Source of the DNA: a virus
DNA length: 64,000 nt
IMG/VR virus record: IMGVR_UViG_3300045972_000132
Location: 35,408 to 99,407 of that record
Strand: one strand, 5' to 3'
In this document: piece by piece, positions 18,590-39,520 of the stretch
Numbering within the stretch: position 1 is the stretch's first letter
Layout of the letters: each line of letters starts with the position of its first letter
Notes under the pieces: model-generated
Seen by the model: the letters and a program-made list of their open reading frames with translations, nothing else
Database searches by the model: none
What the model was told of the DNA's origin: nothing
Made by a program: the position numbers and the translations under genes

Positions 18590-18618
18590 GTGACTTTACT
18601 TCACTTTTGATGTATACT
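18590..18618 (+). promoter_or_regulatory. Sigma70-like promoter with inverted-repeat operator (site 2)
   Basis: -35 GTGACT (18590-18595), 17-bp spacer, -10 TATACT (18613-18618). The box TACTTCA-CTTT-TGATGTA (18597-18614) differs by one base from the perfect palindrome of site 1. It lies at the same place relative to the -10. It drives the fiber gene at 18644, whose leader carries AGGGG. Confidence 0.7.
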
Positions 18619-20155: not shown

Positions 20156-20184
20156 GTGACTCTACTTCACTTTTGATGTATAGT
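20156..20184 (+). promoter_or_regulatory. Sigma70-like promoter with inverted-repeat operator (site 3)
   Basis: -35 GTGACT (20156-20161), 17-bp spacer, -10 TATAGT (20179-20184). The box TACTTCA-CTTT-TGATGTA at 20163-20180 is identical to site 2. The transcript would have a 30-base leader carrying AAAAGGAG before the gene at 20221. Confidence 0.7.
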
Positions 20185-28598: not shown

Positions 28599-28610
28599 TC
28601 AGGAGAAACT

Positions 28611-29018
28611 ATGTCAATTCGCGTCCGCTACAAATTCATTCCTTCAATTTCATCTGATGCCAACGAAGCCAGAGATCTTGGGAATCCGCTGATTGAAGTC
28701 TACAGCGATGCCTTGGTAGACGGCGGCTCATTCAGGGCTACTGTTCCAGCCTTGGCGACCAATTTACAAATCGCTATGCCGGGAATCGCTAACGTTAGCT
28801 TCCTAGCCATTAGAGCTACCTCAACCGATTCCTCACTAGCTCCTGTAACGGTTAACTTGACCAAAAACTCCCCCTCAGGTGAAGTTATTGCCTTGGTTCC
28901 ATTCGGAGGTAAAGAGTCACTTCTTGTGCTAACCACCTCCGGTATCACTAGCATCTATGCTAGCAACCCTAGCACCACTACCTCAATGGACTTAACCTTC
29001 TACGTCGCCGGTAACTAA
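28611..29018 (+). CDS. Small virion-type beta protein, unknown
   Basis: 135 residues, not recognised. CAGGAG precedes the ATG. It alternates Val/Thr/Ser strands (PVTVNLTKNSPSGEVIALVPFGGKE) and ends in a short strand, like small beta-sandwich structural proteins. It lies between a fiber gene and a small acidic protein, and its stop overlaps the next start. Confidence 0.5.
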   Translation: MSIRVRYKFIPSISSDANEARDLGNPLIEVYSDALVDGGSFRATVPALATNLQIAMPGIANVSFLAIRATSTDSSLAPVTVNLTKNSPSGEVIALVPFGGKESLLVLTTSGITSIYASNPSTTTSMDLTFYVAGN

Positions 29019-29368
29019 TGACTAAGCTAGTTCTAAGACCATGTAGGGTTAGAAGTACCTTCTTCAGCACCGAGGAAGAGGATCCCGTTACTTATGATTT
29101 AAAACAGCTTAGAAACGAATTAACCAATACTTACGATAGGTTAGAGTCTCACAAGATTTCCATGCTCCAACAGGATGCCTATATTGGTAGTTCTCAGACC
29201 GCGACGGGAAATAAAATCTTCGTACTGATAAATCCAGATAAATCTGGTAATATTGCATGGGTATTAGCAAAAGACCCCTCTTTCAGGGACCGTATTTTAA
29301 AAGTTTATAAAGTACAGTCCATTGATTGGGGTTCACAGATTGAAGAACAAAACTTCCTAGGAGCTTGA
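29018..29368 (+). CDS. Unknown protein with coiled-coil segment
   Basis: 116 residues. Residues 28-55 (LKQLRNELTNTYDRLESHKISML) are a likely short coiled coil, followed by a beta-rich half (GNKIFVLINPDKSGNIAWVLA). No family recognised. It is co-translated with the preceding gene (TAATG). Confidence 0.5.
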   Translation: MTKLVLRPCRVRSTFFSTEEEDPVTYDLKQLRNELTNTYDRLESHKISMLQQDAYIGSSQTATGNKIFVLINPDKSGNIAWVLAKDPSFRDRILKVYKVQSIDWGSQIEEQNFLGA

Positions 29369-29372
29369 AATT

Positions 29373-29738
29373 ATGTCTAAACTACTTGAATCCATTGATG
29401 CCGTGGGGGAATTGTTCAACCTCTCAGAGGGTCACGAAAAGAAACACAACCCCTTCCGTCACCACTCCAAACTAGGCAATAAGACTCCACGCTCCAGAAA
29501 CGGCGCTGATGAAGTCGAAAAGTGGGAATGCACCAAGAAGGGTGCATATCTTCAGGTCTGCAAGGGCGTAGGCCCCGGTAATGAAGGTCGTACCAAGATC
29601 GTTCATGTTGACCCCTCTTGGAAGAAGCAGTACAACGCTGAATATAAGAAAGGAATGGCGAGTGGAAAATATGTTCCAGCAGTCAGAAGTGGCGGAACTA
29701 AAAAAGCAAAGAAAGCCAAGCTTTCAAGCCACGAATAG
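29373..29738 (+). CDS. Basic protein whose 3' end was replaced by a mobile endonuclease element
   Basis: 121 residues, strongly basic, with a Lys/Arg-rich C-terminus (VRSGGTKKAKKAKLS). The N-terminus MSKLLESIDAV resembles those of the genes at 34016 and 35041, so it may share a targeting signal. The 3' end is unusual: codons for 25 residues (29652-29726) encode exactly the same peptide as a displaced copy at 30435-30509, but 17 of 25 codons differ synonymously. The body of the gene uses AAG/TAC-type codons like the displaced copy; the attached tail uses AAA/TAT-type codons. The tail therefore probably came with the GIY-YIG gene that overlaps it. Confidence 0.7.
   Translation: MSKLLESIDAVGELFNLSEGHEKKHNPFRHHSKLGNKTPRSRNGADEVEKWECTKKGAYLQVCKGVGPGNEGRTKIVHVDPSWKKQYNAEYKKGMASGKYVPAVRSGGTKKAKKAKLSSHE
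29652..29726 (+). repeat. Recoded copy of the host-gene 3' end (imperfect direct repeat, first copy)
   Basis: Encodes the same 25 residues (starting GMASGKYVPAV) as 30435-30509. Only 8 of the 25 codons are identical. Protein identity with low nucleotide identity means selection kept the peptide while the DNA changed, as expected where the DNA must escape the endonuclease's own cut. Confidence 0.85.
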
Positions 29739-30417
29739 ATTTCTGATTTACGCGCTAGTAGATCCTACAGATCCGTCTAAATTCCGATATGTAGGTCAAA
29801 GCCGCCAAGGAATGAAGCGTCCCGCTATTCATTGCATGGAATCTACGCTAAGGAACGATAAAAATCTTCATAAAACAAACTGGATTAGATCAGTTCTAGC
29901 CAAGGGTGTAAAGCCGGATATCATAGTTCTAGACACACTACCTGACCGAACTGAAGAGTATTCTAAGAACGAAATCATGCTCTGGCTAAATGAGTCTGAA
30001 ACTAGATTTATTAAAAAATACAGATTAGAGGGGCATCCTCTGACAAACCTAACAGACGGCGGATCTGGTCCGGTTGGTTTTAAAATGCCAGAAGACGCTA
30101 AGAGAAGGATATCTAAAACCCTGAAGGGTAGAGTATTTTCAGACTCCCATAAAGAGTTGATTTCTATTAGAAAATCTGGAGTCCCTCAGTCGGATGAACA
30201 TAAGTTAGCCTTATCTAAAGTACGAGAGGGTAGAATAATTTCAGAATCAACTAAAGCTAAAATTTCAGCTAGTCATAAGGGTAAAGTTCTCCCAGAAGAA
30301 ACCAAACGCAGAATATCTATCGCAAAGAAAGGTATTCCTAAAACAGAAGACCAAATGAAAAAAATGTGGGATACTAGGAGAGCAAAGTATGGTCCCCTTG
30401 GGAGGTCTATAAAATGA
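29671..30417 (+). CDS. GIY-YIG homing endonuclease with NUMOD3-type repeats
   Basis: 248 residues from ATG 29671, overlapping the host gene's end by 68 bases in the +1 frame. The domain begins LIYALVDP and FRYVGQS (variant of GIY-YIG), with Arg and Glu residues further on (R near RPAIHCMES, E in NESETRFIKKY). The C-terminal half has at least four short repeats of NUMOD3 type (DAKRRISKTLKGR; STKAKISASHKGK; ETKRRISIAKKGI), which bind DNA. The start codon exists only because the recoded tail reads TAT-GTT where the displaced copy reads TAC-GTT. Such enzymes cut uninvaded alleles and spread by repair. Its base composition is more A-rich than its neighbours. Confidence 0.75.
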   Translation: MFQQSEVAELKKQRKPSFQATNRFLIYALVDPTDPSKFRYVGQSRQGMKRPAIHCMESTLRNDKNLHKTNWIRSVLAKGVKPDIIVLDTLPDRTEEYSKNEIMLWLNESETRFIKKYRLEGHPLTNLTDGGSGPVGFKMPEDAKRRISKTLKGRVFSDSHKELISIRKSGVPQSDEHKLALSKVREGRIISESTKAKISASHKGKVLPEETKRRISIAKKGIPKTEDQMKKMWDTRRAKYGPLGRSIK

Positions 30418-30521
30418 CTAAAACAAAACAAACAGGCATGGCTTCTGGCAAATACGTTCCCGCCGTTCGTTCGGGTGGAACCAAGAAGGCTAAGAAGGCC
30501 AAGCTCTCAAAGAAGGATTAA
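30414..30521 (+). pseudogene. Displaced original 3' end of the gene at 29373 (35-codon relic)
   Basis: An open frame of 35 codons begins ATGACTAAAACA, overlaps the endonuclease stop by three bases, and from 30435 encodes the 25 residues of the host C-terminus, then KKD and TAA. Codon choice matches the body of the host gene. It has no domain of its own. AAGGA at 30513-30517, inside its last codons, is the ribosome-binding site for the GTG-started gene at 30527, which would explain why the relic is kept. It may still be translated as a small basic peptide. Confidence 0.75.
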
Positions 30522-30526
30522 CCTAA

Positions 30527-31291
30527 GTGGCCGGTCTTTCATCACTAGCATCTTCCATGAATATGACAGTCAACTCCAAGAGAGTTGGCTTTAATATTCT
30601 CACGCTCGATGAGAAAGACAATGTAATTAGCTATAAGAGTCTTCAATACTTTCCAGAATCCCTTAGGGACTCCAAATCAGTAGACTATTCTAGAAAGGCA
30701 ATGCCGGGAGGCTCCCTACCGATCTACCAGTGGGTTTCCGGGGGCGCTAGAACTCTTTCCCTGACTGCCATTCTTTCTTGTGATAATGACCTATCCGATA
30801 TTAATACGGGTGTAGTGAATTCCTTTATGAAGTTAGAAGATTTAAATAGTAAGGGACTTCAGCGGAATAATATAGACATCCGAAGTGCGGTGGTCTGGCT
30901 TCGACAACATCTATACCCTCGGTACTCTCAAAATCAACAAACACCCTCTGGGTACCAAGTAAGTGCCCCTAGAAAGGTATTTTTAAATATACCCAACTCT
31001 GGAATTGGTTTTGCGGGTATGGGATCCCTCTCTAGACCTGACTCGGTTCTATGTATTATGACTCAATGTGAAGTGGACTATAAGAGCTTTTTCCCTAACG
31101 GACTACCTAGGCTAGCCAGTATCCAGCTTTCTTTTGAAGAAGTAGCTCAGTATCAGGGGCTAATTACTTTCCCCGCAGCTTCTAAGGGCTTGGATGCACT
31201 TTATGAGCAGAGAGGTTTATATAGTGATGCGCCCGATAACTATAGAAGATATGAAGTTGGATCCAAAGGTACTATTGTTGGCGGTGGTTAA
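30527..31291 (+). CDS. Baseplate / tube-initiator-like structural protein (GTG start)
   Basis: 254 residues starting GTG, with AAGGA nine bases upstream. Residues 30-80 (YFPESLRDSKSVDYSR, then LPIYQWVSGGARTLSLTAIL) have the order seen in contractile injection system tube/hub-adaptor proteins (CIS tube N-terminal domain): a strand, KSVxY, then GGxxxLxL. A second beta domain includes SVLCIMTQCEVDYKSFFPNGLPRLASIQLSFEEV, matching the usual late segment (NGxPxRAxLxLxFxE). It probably connects tube and baseplate. It is far from the main tail cluster. Confidence 0.55.
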   Translation: MAGLSSLASSMNMTVNSKRVGFNILTLDEKDNVISYKSLQYFPESLRDSKSVDYSRKAMPGGSLPIYQWVSGGARTLSLTAILSCDNDLSDINTGVVNSFMKLEDLNSKGLQRNNIDIRSAVVWLRQHLYPRYSQNQQTPSGYQVSAPRKVFLNIPNSGIGFAGMGSLSRPDSVLCIMTQCEVDYKSFFPNGLPRLASIQLSFEEVAQYQGLITFPAASKGLDALYEQRGLYSDAPDNYRRYEVGSKGTIVGGG

Positions 31292-31294
31292 CTA

Positions 31295-31465
31295 ATGAAA
31301 TCTACCCAAGTAAGTGAACCTGCCACAAGCGACCTGATGATCCTAGCTCTACCCATATCTAGTTTTAAAAAGCTACATGCCCTCTCTAGCGTGAATGACA
31401 AAACCGTAGCACAATTGTTAACTGAGGCAATAGATGCCTATATTGGCAATTTAAAAAAGGAGTAA
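31295..31465 (+). CDS. Small ribbon-helix-helix-like protein
   Basis: 56 residues (ATG 31295, TAA 31463-31465). The pattern DLMILALPISSFKKLHAL, then DKTVAQLLTEAIDAYI, is a single strand followed by two helices, as in Arc/CopG-type DNA-binding proteins. It fills the gap between the baseplate-like gene and the membrane protein. AAAAAGGAG at its 3' end serves the following gene. Likely a transcription regulator; target unknown. Confidence 0.55.
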   Translation: MKSTQVSEPATSDLMILALPISSFKKLHALSSVNDKTVAQLLTEAIDAYIGNLKKE

Positions 31466-31468
31466 CCC

Positions 31469-31822
31469 ATGAACTTAGACGCAATGTTAACCGGACAGAA
31501 CGGAGTGCTAGCTGGTGCCATTATTGGAATTGTAATGGCACTAAAGCGTTCTGTTCCATGGCTCACTGAGTCCAAGGCAGGCCAACGCCTACTCCCCATC
31601 GTCCCCCTTATTCTCGGGGCAATCGGAGGTGGCTTTGGTAGTGTTATTGTAGATCCCGTAACTATGGCTAACAAGATCATCGCCGGTATTATGGTTGGCG
31701 GCGCTGCCAGCCTAGGTTTCAAAATGCTCAAGACCACCGTATTTGGTCACGGGCTAGATGATGTGGACCCTGAAGTAGAAACCCCTCACGAGGCCCCTAA
31801 GCCTCCTAAGGCGGAAGGATAA
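31469..31822 (+). CDS. Membrane protein, holin candidate
   Basis: 117 residues with three predicted membrane segments (about 13-28, 42-62 and 67-87; Gly/Ala/Ile-rich) and a charged, Pro-rich C-terminal tail (EVETPHEAPKPPKAEG). Size, topology and position some 4.7 kb ahead of an endolysin fit a class I holin, which makes holes for the endolysin. No family signature is decisive. AAAAAGGAG is upstream. Confidence 0.45.
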   Translation: MNLDAMLTGQNGVLAGAIIGIVMALKRSVPWLTESKAGQRLLPIVPLILGAIGGGFGSVIVDPVTMANKIIAGIMVGGAASLGFKMLKTTVFGHGLDDVDPEVETPHEAPKPPKAEG

Positions 31823-31830
31823 ATTAGACC

Positions 31831-32301
31831 ATGGCACTTCCTGCTAACTGGCCCCCAAAGGTTTCTTCCGGCCTCCGCTCGATTCGGGCGTATGTCACTG
31901 CAACCTCTACAGTCAACTTCTCTGATAATGCGTACATGTTTGCCGATCTCGTCGCGGGAACGGCAAACACCTTTACCCCGACCCCGGTAGTTTCTCCTAG
32001 CCAGCAGACGATGACCGGCCCAAGCGGTGAAGGTACTAACGCCAATACTGCACTTGGTAAAACCCCCAATGGTACTGGCGCAAATGATGCAAATGATCAG
32101 AAACCCCAAACTTGGGCATTTGGAATTCGAATCTGCAATGACGGGACCACTACTGACAAGATCGACTACTCCTTCGACGCTGTTAACGTCCATGGTCAGC
32201 TAAAGGCAGGAGAGACTGTCGTATATCTTCACCGTCATGAATCCGGCATCGCTATCCGCGCCTCAAGCGGAACGCCTTCATTCCGCATCGAAGCATGGTA
32301 G
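31831..32301 (+). CDS. Small virion-type protein; 3' end is target of the HNH element
   Basis: 156 residues, Thr/Asn/Ala-rich, with a beta-like second half (QTWAFGIRICNDGTTTDKIDYSFD, ETVVYLHRHESGIAIRASS). It resembles small decoration or adaptor proteins but is not recognised. Its last codons (TTC CGC ATC GAA GCA TGG TAG) recur, slightly changed, downstream of the HNH gene at 33058-33075, just ahead of the terminator. The gene's original 3' end and terminator were thus separated by insertion. Confidence 0.55.
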   Translation: MALPANWPPKVSSGLRSIRAYVTATSTVNFSDNAYMFADLVAGTANTFTPTPVVSPSQQTMTGPSGEGTNANTALGKTPNGTGANDANDQKPQTWAFGIRICNDGTTTDKIDYSFDAVNVHGQLKAGETVVYLHRHESGIAIRASSGTPSFRIEAW

Positions 32302-32314
32302 GATATCAGACTAC

Positions 32315-33055
32315 ATGGTAGCAGTTGATATAGTTCGCCTAATAGGTCTATACCAAAGCGGTAAATCTACTAGAGTAGTAGGTTCTGAGTTAGGTGTAGA
32401 CCACGTTACCGTTTTGAACATTTTAAAGAAAACAGGTACTACTATACGTTCTAGAGTAATGCCCAGAAAAGTATCTGTATCTGAGGTAGTAGAAGCTCAC
32501 TATAGTGGGCTTACTGGTGGAGAAATTGCCACAAAGCTTGGTGTTGATAAGGCTCTAGTCTATGCAAGACTTAAGGAGGCCAATGTAACTCCTTGGTCAT
32601 TTATAGAAAAGGATTGGGTATCTCTAGCAGTAGAGCTTTACGAGGCAGGTATGGACTGTCCTGTAATTTCAGACTTCATAGGCCCATCTACGGCTTTCAT
32701 ATACTCAGAACTAAAGAAGTCTGGTGTTAAATTCAGATCTAGTAAGGCATGTGGTAGGAATTTCACAAAAGGTTATGCTAAATCCTTCAATTCGGAATTG
32801 AAGTTAAAAATACGCACCAGAGACAACTTTGTCTGTAAATCCTGTGGTCTTACTGAAGCTGAGAACAAGGAACGAATTAAGATTCAGGGTCGTGGACAAC
32901 CTCTTACGATTCACCATATAGATTTTGATAAAATGAATTCTTCCGAAGACAACTTGATCACTCTTTGCATTAGATGCAATGCACAAGCCAACACGGATCG
33001 TGAACACTTCAAAACACTGTATTCAGAAAAGGTCAGAGAAATTCTGAACAGCTAG
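32315..33055 (+). CDS. HNH homing endonuclease with helix-turn-helix repeats
   Basis: 246 residues from ATG 32315; weak AGGA eleven bases upstream. Three helix-turn-helix-like units lie at about 20-45 (VVGSELGVDHVTVLNILKKT), 68-92 (IATKLGVDKALVYARLKEA) and 115-140. The HNH domain follows: CKSCGL at about 180, then LTIHHIDFDKMNSSEDNL and LCIRCNAQ, with the metal Cys pairs and the HH motif intact. It sits between a structural gene and that gene's apparent terminator, flanked by a 12-bp repeat (TCGAAGCATGGT), so it looks like a recent mobile insertion. Confidence 0.75.
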   Translation: MVAVDIVRLIGLYQSGKSTRVVGSELGVDHVTVLNILKKTGTTIRSRVMPRKVSVSEVVEAHYSGLTGGEIATKLGVDKALVYARLKEANVTPWSFIEKDWVSLAVELYEAGMDCPVISDFIGPSTAFIYSELKKSGVKFRSSKACGRNFTKGYAKSFNSELKLKIRTRDNFVCKSCGLTEAENKERIKIQGRGQPLTIHHIDFDKMNSSEDNLITLCIRCNAQANTDREHFKTLYSEKVREILNS

Positions 33056-33057
33056 TC

Positions 33058-33075
33058 AGGGTCGAAGCATGGTGA
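33058..33075 (+). repeat. Displaced copy of the 3' end of the gene at 31831
   Basis: AGG GTC GAA GCA TGG TGA encodes RVEAW-stop. This parallels CGC ATC GAA GCA TGG TAG (RIEAW-stop) at 32284-32301. The identical core TCGAAGCATGGT (12 bases) flanks the HNH gene as a direct repeat. The copy is short, so chance cannot be fully excluded. Confidence 0.55.
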
Positions 33076-33101
33076 CGAATTTACAATAAAGTTCAGAGTT
33101 C

Positions 33102-33133
33102 AAAGCCCCTCTGGTTGATTCCAGAGGGGCTTT
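33102..33133 (+). terminator. Strong hairpin terminator
   Basis: Perfect 13-bp stem AAAGCCCCTCTGG / CCAGAGGGGCTTT around loop TTGATT (33115-33120). The A-tract on the left and T-tract on the right could stop transcription from either side. It probably ended the transcript of the gene at 31831 before the HNH insertion. Confidence 0.8.
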
Positions 33134-33143
33134 CTGCTATATA
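33115..33143 (+). promoter_or_regulatory. Promoter overlapping the terminator hairpin
   Basis: -35 TTGATT is the loop of the terminator. A 17-bp spacer (the right stem) leads to TGC-TATATA, an extended -10 at 33138-33143. The Nudix start codon follows six bases later, without a convincing Shine-Dalgarno. Confidence 0.6.
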
Positions 33144-33149
33144 GGCTAC

Positions 33150-33644
33150 ATGAGCGAAACTCCTGTAGTCCCCGCGACCCCTACCCATGCAGGCCCCACC
33201 TACGCTACTACCAAGTGGACTTCCGCTGGTGGGGTTGTCCTTAAGGGCTTGTCACGACAAGCAATTGACTACGTTTGGGTAATTAAGCCCTCCGGTAGCT
33301 ACGGCAGCAGTTGGTCCCTTCCAAAGGGTAGAAAAGACGAAGGAAGCACCCTAGAAGAGACCGCGACCAGAGAAGTCTTGGAAGAATCTGGGCTAATGGC
33401 TAAATTCATTCCCAATGGCTATCTAGGCTCCCACGAGGGATCCAGCAGCACTACCCATTATTACCTCATGGTCCAAACTACTGGAAACCCCTTGGATCAT
33501 GACTTTGAAACCGAAAAGGTTCTACTCCTTAAGATCGATGACGCCATTGCTCTCATGGAGAAAGACTATAATCGTCGGGACGAGAGGGTCCTCAAGCTGG
33601 CTAAAGAGAAAATCGACCTTTTAAAAAGCAATCTAGGCTATTGA
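33150..33644 (+). CDS. Nudix hydrolase
   Basis: 164 residues. The Nudix box lies at about residues 61-83 (GRKDEGSTLEETATREVLEE, then SGL): the metal-binding REVLEE part is intact, but the first conserved Glu of GX5EX7REUXEEXGU is Ser. SLPKG before the box is typical. The enzyme would hydrolyse a nucleoside diphosphate-linked compound, possibly damaged dNTPs, dinucleoside polyphosphates or an RNA cap; the substrate cannot be told. Transcript probably leaderless, since ATG 33150 is six bases after the -10. Confidence 0.8.
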   Translation: MSETPVVPATPTHAGPTYATTKWTSAGGVVLKGLSRQAIDYVWVIKPSGSYGSSWSLPKGRKDEGSTLEETATREVLEESGLMAKFIPNGYLGSHEGSSSTTHYYLMVQTTGNPLDHDFETEKVLLLKIDDAIALMEKDYNRRDERVLKLAKEKIDLLKSNLGY

Positions 33645-33654
33645 GCTTAATTGG

Positions 33655-33688
33655 TTGGTATTTGAGGATTTCACTGTTATAATCCTCA
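33655..33688 (+). promoter_or_regulatory. Promoter with perfect 8-bp inverted repeat around the -10
   Basis: -35 TTGGTA (33655-33660), 17-bp spacer, extended -10 TGT-TATAAT (33678-33683). TGAGGATT (33663-33670) and AATCCTCA (33681-33688) form a perfect inverted repeat with a 10-base gap that encloses the -10. This is an operator candidate different from the 18-bp box. The start codon lies at 33690. Confidence 0.65.
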
Positions 33689-33689
33689 C

Positions 33690-34019
33690 ATGACCACTCC
33701 AATTCTGACGACTCTTGAGTACTACTGGAAAAACACCAAAGTATTCCTTTGGGGGTTTCTAGCGGTTGTTGCAGCCATTCTTGGTATCGTCGCCAAGTCA
33801 TTATTCGATAATAAAGTTCGTGGATTGGACTTTACCCCTCCAGCACCAAACCCCAATTTAATAAAAAAGGTAGAGGAAGCCAAGGAATCGGCAAATTCTG
33901 CTAAGATTAAGGCCAAGGTCACTGAAGAGGCCGAGCACGCTAAATTGGAAGAAATCCACACTATTACCGACGACGTTGAGCGTCGTAAGAGGCTAGCCGA
34001 AATGGCTAATTCCCTATGA
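33690..34019 (+). CDS. Membrane-anchored coiled-coil protein, spanin candidate
   Basis: 109 residues. One N-terminal membrane segment (about 17-37, VFLWGFLAVVAAILGIVAKSL) is followed by a Pro-rich hinge and a long charged helix (KKVEEAKESANSAKIKAKVTEEAEHAKLEEIH). This N-in, periplasmic coiled-coil layout fits an inner-membrane spanin (Rz-like), which would help rupture the outer membrane. Position between holin candidate and endolysin supports a lysis role. No outer-membrane partner (lipoprotein) was found. ATG is six bases after the -10, with no Shine-Dalgarno. Confidence 0.45.
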   Translation: MTTPILTTLEYYWKNTKVFLWGFLAVVAAILGIVAKSLFDNKVRGLDFTPPAPNPNLIKKVEEAKESANSAKIKAKVTEEAEHAKLEEIHTITDDVERRKRLAEMANSL

Positions 34020-37793: not shown

Positions 37794-38088
37794 CCTACTT
37801 AGTAATTCAGAAGTAGTGCTTAATCTCAAGACCTGCCCACAATGCAATACCAGTGTTCTTCCAAGGGACCCGGCGGGCGACGTTAGAATTAACTGGGACG
37901 ACATTCGTCTTCTGGTTGAACTAGCAGGTCGTTACATCTATAGTCAAAAAACTACTAGCTATCTAGTGGATGAATTTGATACAGTCCTATCTAGCCTTCA
38001 GAGAGTAAAACCTGAAGGTGCTCTGGAACTTGAACCCTTACCTTTAGAAATGAAAGCGAGCTATGTACCCAGCACCCTTAGGAATTAA
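37768..38088 (+). CDS. Zinc-ribbon protein, unknown
   Basis: 106 residues. CPKC (residues 5-8) and CPQC (23-26) make an N-terminal zinc ribbon. The rest is helical (INWDDIRLLVELAGRYIY, LVDEFDTVLSSLQ). It overlaps genes at both ends (26 bases on each side). Confidence 0.6.
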   Translation: MKLRCPKCDLLSNSEVVLNLKTCPQCNTSVLPRDPAGDVRINWDDIRLLVELAGRYIYSQKTTSYLVDEFDTVLSSLQRVKPEGALELEPLPLEMKASYVPSTLRN

Positions 38089-39520
38089 AAATCAAGTAGG
38101 AAAGGTTTTAGGAACTAAAATCATAACGCAGTATCTACGTTATAAAGGTTCCAACTGCTGGAAAACCAAATGCTCTGTATGTGAGTATGAATCAATTGCG
38201 CCGGATTCTTTAGTAAGAAAGAATAAGATTAGGTCTTGTAGGTGCCAGAGACCTAATCTAGGTGCTCACAAACTAGAAATATTTAATTGCGAATTCGGTA
38301 TTTCCAATAAATGTAAGGTTAGTTGGAAAATGCCTAAAAGAGTCGGAGACAGAACCAGAAAGCTAAATGAGGGTAAAATAATTTGTTTGTTCTGCTCTAG
38401 AACCCTAAAATTTTCAGGTAGAGCAAATCCAAACTGCCAATACAAAAATCTAAACGATAATTTTTTTGAGGTGGTAGACTCTAGTGATAAGGCATATATC
38501 CTAGGCTGGATCGCCAGCGACGGACATTTAGACACTGGTTCTATCTCAATCTTTATTCAACAAGAAGACATAGAGTGCATAGAACATATTAGAGACATGA
38601 TATGCCCAGAGATACCTATAAGCTATAGAAGAGAAGACAATCATACTCTTATGGTCGGATTAACTCTTAGCTCACAGAAAATGGTTAAAGATGTGTGTGG
38701 ATGGTTAAGGATACTCCCTGGAGAAAAAGCAAGCACTGTAGATTTTCCAGACTTGGCTTCAAACGAGTTTAAATGGTCCTTTCTTCGAGGTTTATTTGAC
38801 GGAGATGGATCTCTAAATACCACGCAGCCAAAAAACGGTTGGCCTTCCCCTGTTGCAAGCATTTCTAGTTATTCAGACTCAATGAGAAGTAAGATTAAGG
38901 AACTTTCCCCTAGCGCCAATAATTATCCTAACAATGGTGTCATCGAGTGGAACGGTGTCAATGCTTTAGATTTCCTAGGAAAGCTGTACGCCAATACTAC
39001 AAACACTAATAGATTAAGGCGCAAGTATGAACTTTTTGAGAATTGGTGTCTGTGTGTTCCAGGATTAAATGGACCTATAGTTAATCGCAAGTCCGCACAC
39101 TTTATATGGGCTAGATCAAGAAAAGATGCTGTTCCGCCGTCTAAAGCCAATATCTCAGATTCAGGGTACGATCTAACTTTACTAGAAAAAGTAAAATCTG
39201 CTGGAAACATAGACTTTTACGATACAGGTGTCAAGATTCAACCACTCCACGGCTGGTACTTCGACCTTGTACCTAGATCGTCGATTAGTAAATCTGGGTA
39301 CATGTTGGCTAATTCCGTTGGAGTAATAGATAGAAGCTACATAGGATCTATACTAGTTCCACTAATAAAGACGAATACAAATGCAGAAGACCTAAAGCTT
39401 CCCAATAAACTGGTCCAGATCATACCTAGACCAATCATCCATGCTGAAATAGTTGAAGTAGAGCAGCTAGAAACTACCTCCAGAGCCGAAGGCAGCTTTG
39501 GAAGCACTAATAATAAATAA
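38063..39520 (+). CDS. LAGLIDADG homing endonuclease fused to dUTPase
   Basis: 485 residues. Residues 30-61 hold a zinc finger common in phage homing endonucleases (CSVCEYESI, then SCRCQ); a second Cys cluster follows at 84-125. Two LAGLIDADG-type motifs lie at about 144-156 (YILGWIASDGHL) and 239-251 (FLRGLFDGDGSL). Residues 346-483 are a complete dUTPase with all five motifs: DSGYDL (365-370), VPRSSIS (403-409), NSVGVIDRSYIG (417-428), LVQIIPRP (450-457) and RAEGSFGSTN (474-483). There is no usable start codon between the domains, so dUTPase must be translated as a fusion. Intein splice signals are not seen. dUTPase keeps uracil out of phage DNA. The ATG start is 26 bases inside the previous gene. 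Confidence 0.8.
   Translation: MYPAPLGIKNQVGKVLGTKIITQYLRYKGSNCWKTKCSVCEYESIAPDSLVRKNKIRSCRCQRPNLGAHKLEIFNCEFGISNKCKVSWKMPKRVGDRTRKLNEGKIICLFCSRTLKFSGRANPNCQYKNLNDNFFEVVDSSDKAYILGWIASDGHLDTGSISIFIQQEDIECIEHIRDMICPEIPISYRREDNHTLMVGLTLSSQKMVKDVCGWLRILPGEKASTVDFPDLASNEFKWSFLRGLFDGDGSLNTTQPKNGWPSPVASISSYSDSMRSKIKELSPSANNYPNNGVIEWNGVNALDFLGKLYANTTNTNRLRRKYELFENWCLCVPGLNGPIVNRKSAHFIWARSRKDAVPPSKANISDSGYDLTLLEKVKSAGNIDFYDTGVKIQPLHGWYFDLVPRSSISKSGYMLANSVGVIDRSYIGSILVPLIKTNTNAEDLKLPNKLVQIIPRPIIHAEIVEVEQLETTSRAEGSFGSTNNK

Follow-up and report, generated by a model that had tools for sequence, protein, structure and literature searches.

Why should the end of one phage gene be encoded twice, with an endonuclease gene between the two copies? 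The question is raised by a locus in a 64,000-nt stretch of DNA (the window), which lies inside a 99,407-base IMG/VR phage record, a metagenome assembly. The locus reads as follows, with homologous positions in related sequences (L035, L059, G007) given where they exist.

29018 to 29368, + strand: neighbour gene on the upstream side, with synteny in L059 and G007; homolog L035:7143-7526, with L059:2021-2389 as its counterpart by position and sequence resemblance.
29373 to 29651, + strand: body of the host gene, encoding a small lysine-rich protein; homologous to L035:7551-8075 and L059:2386-2991; GC3 0.55.
29652 to 29738, + strand: attached, putative replacement 3' end, GMASGKYVPAVRSGGTKKAKKAKLSSHE, stop TAG; contains, in the +1 frame, the start of the endonuclease; GC3 0.28.
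29671 to 30417, + strand: GIY-YIG endonuclease with NUMOD3 repeats; probable start ATG 29671 (or GTG 29689).
30414 to 30434, + strand: linker MTKTKQT, overlapping the endonuclease stop (ATGA) and leading into the displaced copy.
30435 to 30521, + strand: displaced, probably native 3' end, GMASGKYVPAVRSGGTKKAKKAKLSKKD, stop TAA; GC3 0.60.
30527 to 31291, + strand: downstream neighbour, a weakly CIS-tube-like tail protein; directly after the host gene in the empty allele.

The gene terminus is doubled, with one copy on each side of the GIY-YIG gene. The peptide GMASGKYVPAVRSGGTKKAKKAKLS is encoded at 29652-29726, in the terminal part of ORF 29373-29738, and a second time within ORF 30414-30521, at 30435-30509. 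The original prediction had reported that the same peptide returns after the endonuclease with 17 of its 25 codons synonymously different, and direct comparison of both copies confirmed this: all 25 residues match, whilst 21 of the 75 bases differ and every change is synonymous. Beyond the shared residues the tails part, ending SHE* in the upstream and KKD* in the downstream copy. No same-strand peptide repeat at 250-3500 bp spacing is longer in the whole 99 kb record (runner-up 9 aa). In a comparison of GIY-YIG flanks the tail pair scored 130, against a 95% level of 40 and a maximum of 51 for unrelated flank pairs.

Under neutral simulation, 21 random substitutions altered a mean of 12.9 residues and never fewer than 6 over 20,000 runs. 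The tails agree at 8 of 25 codons, and independent draws from the phage's codon usage gave a mean of 9.1. Because codon agreement equals the independent-draw level, the synonymous sites of the two tails are effectively saturated. Tails that keep their residues despite saturated codons would have evolved apart nearly throughout under protein-level selection. Most likely, the two tails were brought together recently from diverged functional genes. An assembler could instead have joined strains that have the endonuclease to strains that lack it, the record being a metagenome contig. The longest exact run common to the copies and their flanks is however 8 nt, too short to confuse an assembler, the linker is unique and comparable layouts occur in cultured phages (see below), making such a chimera very improbable.

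By domain content, the gene between the copies encodes a putative GIY-YIG homing endonuclease. Residues Y27, Y40, G42, R50, E110 and N126 were invariant in the 15 sequences compared, indicating an intact catalytic motif. The profile of the protein matched the catalytic domain of I-TevI (1mk0, E=4e-7) and, further along, I-HmuI (1u3e); it also matched a PHROG homing endonuclease (E=3e-15). NUMOD3, a DNA-binding region typical of phage homing enzymes, was found above cut-off (E=1.6e-7). I-TevI (PDB 1mk0, 1ln0) thus shares the GIY-YIG catalytic motif and domain with the window enzyme, but I-TevI is intron-encoded and the DNA-binding part of the window enzyme consists of NUMOD3 repeats. The structure model had pLDDT mostly 82-95 in the catalytic part (mean 76.5 overall, pTM 0.49). 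Foldseek matches to this model were weak, the best (E=0.0045) being a 5hmC-specific restriction endonuclease.

The only plausible start codons of the endonuclease, ATG 29671 and GTG 29689, both lie within the attached tail, which is therefore dual-coding and holds the enzyme's translation start. Host and endonuclease reading frames overlap by 68 nt, with the endonuclease in the +1 frame. A frameshift fusion of the two proteins was rejected, since a shift on the A-rich run would be expected towards -1. At the junction, RNA structure was nothing unusual (z=-0.67).

We then compared the locus with relatives retrieved via the major capsid protein and via the downstream gene. L059, a syntenic phage fragment of 3.6 kb from the bin of a Sulfotelmatobacter MAG, has no endonuclease: its host homolog follows the upstream gene, and only 9 nt separate the host stop from the start of the downstream gene. 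In the window, the host body and the displaced copy join in frame as an intact 121-residue gene, whose stop would lie 5 nt ahead of the next start. The L059 spacing, this matching position of the relic ahead of the homologous start and the in-frame join together place the displaced tail where the native 3' end would lie. These comparisons support the GIY-YIG gene as an insertion that separated the host gene from its neighbour downstream, and the empty syntenic site in L059 bears out the original prediction of an element inserted near the host 3' end. That prediction also expected endonuclease-free relatives to read straight from the host gene into the sequence at 30435-30521. In L059 the host gene does lead directly to the downstream gene, but with another tail than that sequence.

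The second relative, G007, has the window's gene order: upstream neighbour, host homolog, GIY-YIG gene and downstream gene. Its endonuclease, 34% identical to the window enzyme, likewise starts within the host 3' end in the +1 frame. No relic follows it, showing that a relic is not a constant feature of occupied sites. The host homologs end KAWRKKQKF (L059) and KAWRKHQRS (G007), both shorter than and unrelated to the GMASGK tail, and among the relatives retrieved no allele combined the window-type tail with absence of the endonuclease. Further relatives of the host protein were found neither by exact peptides in IMG/VR nor by tblastn in INPHARED. A DNA pattern for MASGKYVP matched unrelated proteins only, and the pattern WKKxYNxx[YF]K gave G007 as its only relevant match. 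In a sample of 396 genomes from the phylum of L059's genome, the downstream gene matched only L059 itself and a distant tube-like protein.

An intact gene formed by body plus displaced copy is also what an intron or intein would leave, and introns often carry GIY-YIG enzymes. Rfam nevertheless gave no intron match in 28600-33700, no intein lies in frame, and the Pfam matches of the ORFs include no intein or Hint-type domain. Splicing is moreover unneeded, because the attached tail, open and in phase with the body, already ends the protein at a stop of its own. We regard an intron or intein as extremely improbable, and mobility by neither route, as first proposed, agrees with these searches.

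Alternatively, the downstream copy might be a separate functional gene of 35 residues (MTKTKQTGMASGK...KKD) from an old duplication, with both copies under selection and the endonuclease merely between them. Its ORF is intact, its residues are perfectly conserved, and it may be expressed, since its start is coupled to the endonuclease stop by an ATGA overlap. Yet this ORF has no homolog in 50,697 phage records, in the empty allele the next gene follows the host gene with nothing in between, and the codons of the displaced copy fit the host body, which it joins in frame. Retention of the copy has another explanation: the last codons of the displaced tail carry a ribosome-binding-like AGAAGGA, 9 bases ahead of GTG 30527, and the relic may persist since the next gene uses these codons as its ribosome-binding region. 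A separate gene is thus unlikely.

Which of the two tails is foreign was judged from codon composition. GC3 is 0.55 in the host body and 0.60 in the displaced tail, against 0.28 in the attached tail; the endonuclease has 0.32. The attached tail differed from the body (p=0.024) and from the displaced tail (p=0.045) whilst body and displaced tail did not differ (p=0.82), p values that are individually weak and uncorrected for multiple choices. A codon model from the 93-codon host body preferred the displaced tail by 11.5 nats. The model from the whole phage preferred it by 1.1 nats only, barely separating the tails. The attached tail is the compositionally foreign copy and the displaced tail is native-like, with modest support. 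The original prediction had argued both points, that the body shares its codon habits with the downstream copy and that the attached tail is foreign, and GC3 and the body codon model agree with it at that modest strength. In G007, the last 24 codons of the occupied gene had GC3 of 0.42 against 0.67 (p=0.02, with the window size chosen by us), and the empty L059 host gene showed no such drop at its 3' end. The drop in G007 would fit an imported 3' end, to which the frame overlap may contribute.

The attached tail had initially been called recoded. Its codons do differ, but change in place fits less well than a tail acquired from a diverged relative. Recoding in place would have been driven by the need to encode the endonuclease N-terminus in the +1 frame or to escape cutting, and the position of the endonuclease start inside the tail, with 68 nt read in both frames, is in its favour. 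Saturating synonymous change is slow, however, and a dead relic would not hold 25 of 25 residues until saturation was reached; the relic has lost none. Outside the overlap, in the stretch ahead of that start codon (GGA ATG GCG AGT GGA), the changes also lie as close together. We therefore prefer acquisition and consider recoding in place quite unlikely.

Quite probably, then, the locus holds a free-standing GIY-YIG homing element that brought in, from a diverged relative, a 3' end to replace the host's and left the native end behind as a relic. Such an element would sit at the 3' end of a gene in the phage structural region. Its enzyme would cut the endonuclease-free allele near the codons for NAEYKK/GMASGK, and repair from an occupied donor would copy not only the shared body but also the endonuclease and the donor's tail. 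On the right side, repair may join just ahead of the recipient's own tail, which would be left behind the endonuclease. The altered tail, with 28% of its bases changed, and the split site would then protect the occupied allele. With this new end supplied by the element, the host protein would retain its C-terminus unchanged. The net effect would be a natural 'home and rescue' drive.

A second endonuclease gene of the same phage lies a short distance downstream.

31831 to 32301, + strand: host gene of the second element, ending RIEAW*; its uninterrupted homolog L035:11247-11723 ends LEAW*.
32315 to 33055, + strand: HNH endonuclease, probable start after the host stop.
33062 to 33075, + strand: 3' end displaced from the second host gene (VEAW*, TCGAAGCATGGTGA), six bases beyond the stop of the HNH gene.

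An exact 12-nt repeat flanks the HNH gene (32288-32299 and 33062-33073; 2 matches against 0.00 expected). It holds the last codons of the host gene plus the stop, and reads RVEAW* after the HNH gene. The G007 homolog of this host gene has no HNH gene and ends LEAW*. Around the HNH gene the displaced-3'-end layout recurs in a shorter form, the second case in the same phage.

To find further cases, we surveyed other GIY-YIG loci. None of 36 other related loci in IMG/VR showed a convincing duplication; one candidate (L074, flank score 60) was rejected as low-complexity, and the GIY-YIG gene of G001 had no obvious flank repeat. The flanks of 25 GIY-YIG loci of named phages yielded two real duplications, independent cases in cultured phages and both mirror images at the 5' end. 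In Agrobacterium phage Atu_ph07 (L100), a displaced 5' end (1367-1495) precedes the GIY-YIG gene (1492-2205) and a complete gene (2205-2801), the 42-residue ORF ahead of the GIY-YIG gene repeating the start of the gene behind it. The uninterrupted gene of the endonuclease-free relative Phosso has the leader MESVKD, compared with MDNVKD in the displaced copy of Atu_ph07 (both 13 residues before GHVLIRD) and MTTLDL in the resident copy (12 residues). Scored against the Phosso leader, the displaced copy reached 77 and the resident copy 71, whilst over the next 20 residues the resident copy was marginally closer (14 vs 13). In Achromobacter phage Motura (L103), a relic (1161-1223) encoding 20 aa from the start of a gp25-like baseplate gene lies ahead of the GIY-YIG gene (1267-2148) and the complete gene (2145-2564). 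BcepSauron has the gp25-like gene uninterrupted.

A flank match in Acinetobacter phage SH-Ab 15599 (L118) was rejected as a duplicated terminator hairpin only. There, the GIY-YIG gene behind the capsid gene lies between two near-identical terminator hairpins AAAGCCCCGCAAGGGGCTTTTT, at about 1414-1450 and 2475-2511, as though a terminator had been supplied anew.

Phages may host a general class of free-standing homing elements, outside introns and inteins, that bring a replacement 5' or 3' terminus for the gene entered and would act as natural home-and-rescue drives. The window GIY-YIG gene, its HNH neighbour and the GIY-YIG genes of Atu_ph07 and Motura would be members. We consider such a class about as likely as not.

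Mobile ORF elements of the same anatomy have been described in atp6, atp9, cox2 and nad3 of Glomus sp. and in atp6 of Allomyces macrogynus (PMC3630166). In them too, an endonuclease ORF lies at the gene's 3' end; the gene is fused to a foreign C-terminus whose differences are mostly synonymous, and its native C-terminus remains downstream (PMC3630166). The original prediction had named this Allomyces parallel, and the layout is indeed described there. The two C-termini of Glomus atp6 share 63.5% DNA and 91% protein identity (PMC3630166), the window tails 72% and 100%. Unlike the fungal elements, the window element is in a phage, its endonuclease overlaps the attached tail out of frame, and its relic carries the ribosome-binding region of the next gene. 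For mitochondrial elements of such anatomy, an alternative to horizontal transfer has been put forward, namely transposition to a place behind the stop codon (PMC4019555).

The Seg, Mob and Hef genes of T-even phages resemble the window element as free-standing GIY-YIG or HNH genes near conserved genes (PMC2988022). Overlap with the upstream ORF is frequent among them (segC, segF, mobA, mobC), and spread is by repair with co-conversion of flanks (PMC2988022). T-even free-standing endonucleases are however typically intergenic or gene-splitting (Aeh1 mobE), unlike the window element, and their review makes no mention of duplicated gene ends (PMC2988022). HomeR home-and-rescue drives couple a homing nuclease to a recoded end of the targeted gene; they are engineered, Cas9-based and in insects (PMC7968924). 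The likeness is one of logic and not of descent.

No phage report of a duplicated terminus was found in the literature searched, most subscription papers lying outside the search. As far as we found, the layout of an endonuclease with a replacement tail is known in fungal mitochondria and apparently undescribed in phages. The initial statement that no phage case was known thus holds for the literature searched, but the short HNH case and the 5' mirrors in Atu_ph07 and Motura now stand beside the window element.

If our reading is correct, a selfish endonuclease could enter an essential gene without splicing, by means of a spare synonymous end. To our knowledge, home-and-rescue logic has so far been seen in nature only in fungal mitochondria, and phages make the idea easy to test. 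Foreign ends and sudden synonymous shifts of phage structural genes would be accounted for as well, and the relics offer a genomic signature usable for systematic survey.

Several other features of the window were observed. The genes at 29373, 34016 and 35041 open with similar LLE(S/N)I...-like peptides, two of them having IRAEIETQ in common; these starts are perhaps a capsid-targeting or protease-cleaved leader. In ORF 38063-39520, a LAGLIDADG-type endonuclease reads in frame into a dUTPase; this ORF is in the +1 frame relative to the preceding gene, whose 3' end it overlaps. Intergenic repeats of 27 nt (TACTTCACTTTTGATGTATA), nearly identical to each other, lie at 18590-18616 and 20156-20182, ahead of two genes, and are possibly a phage promoter.
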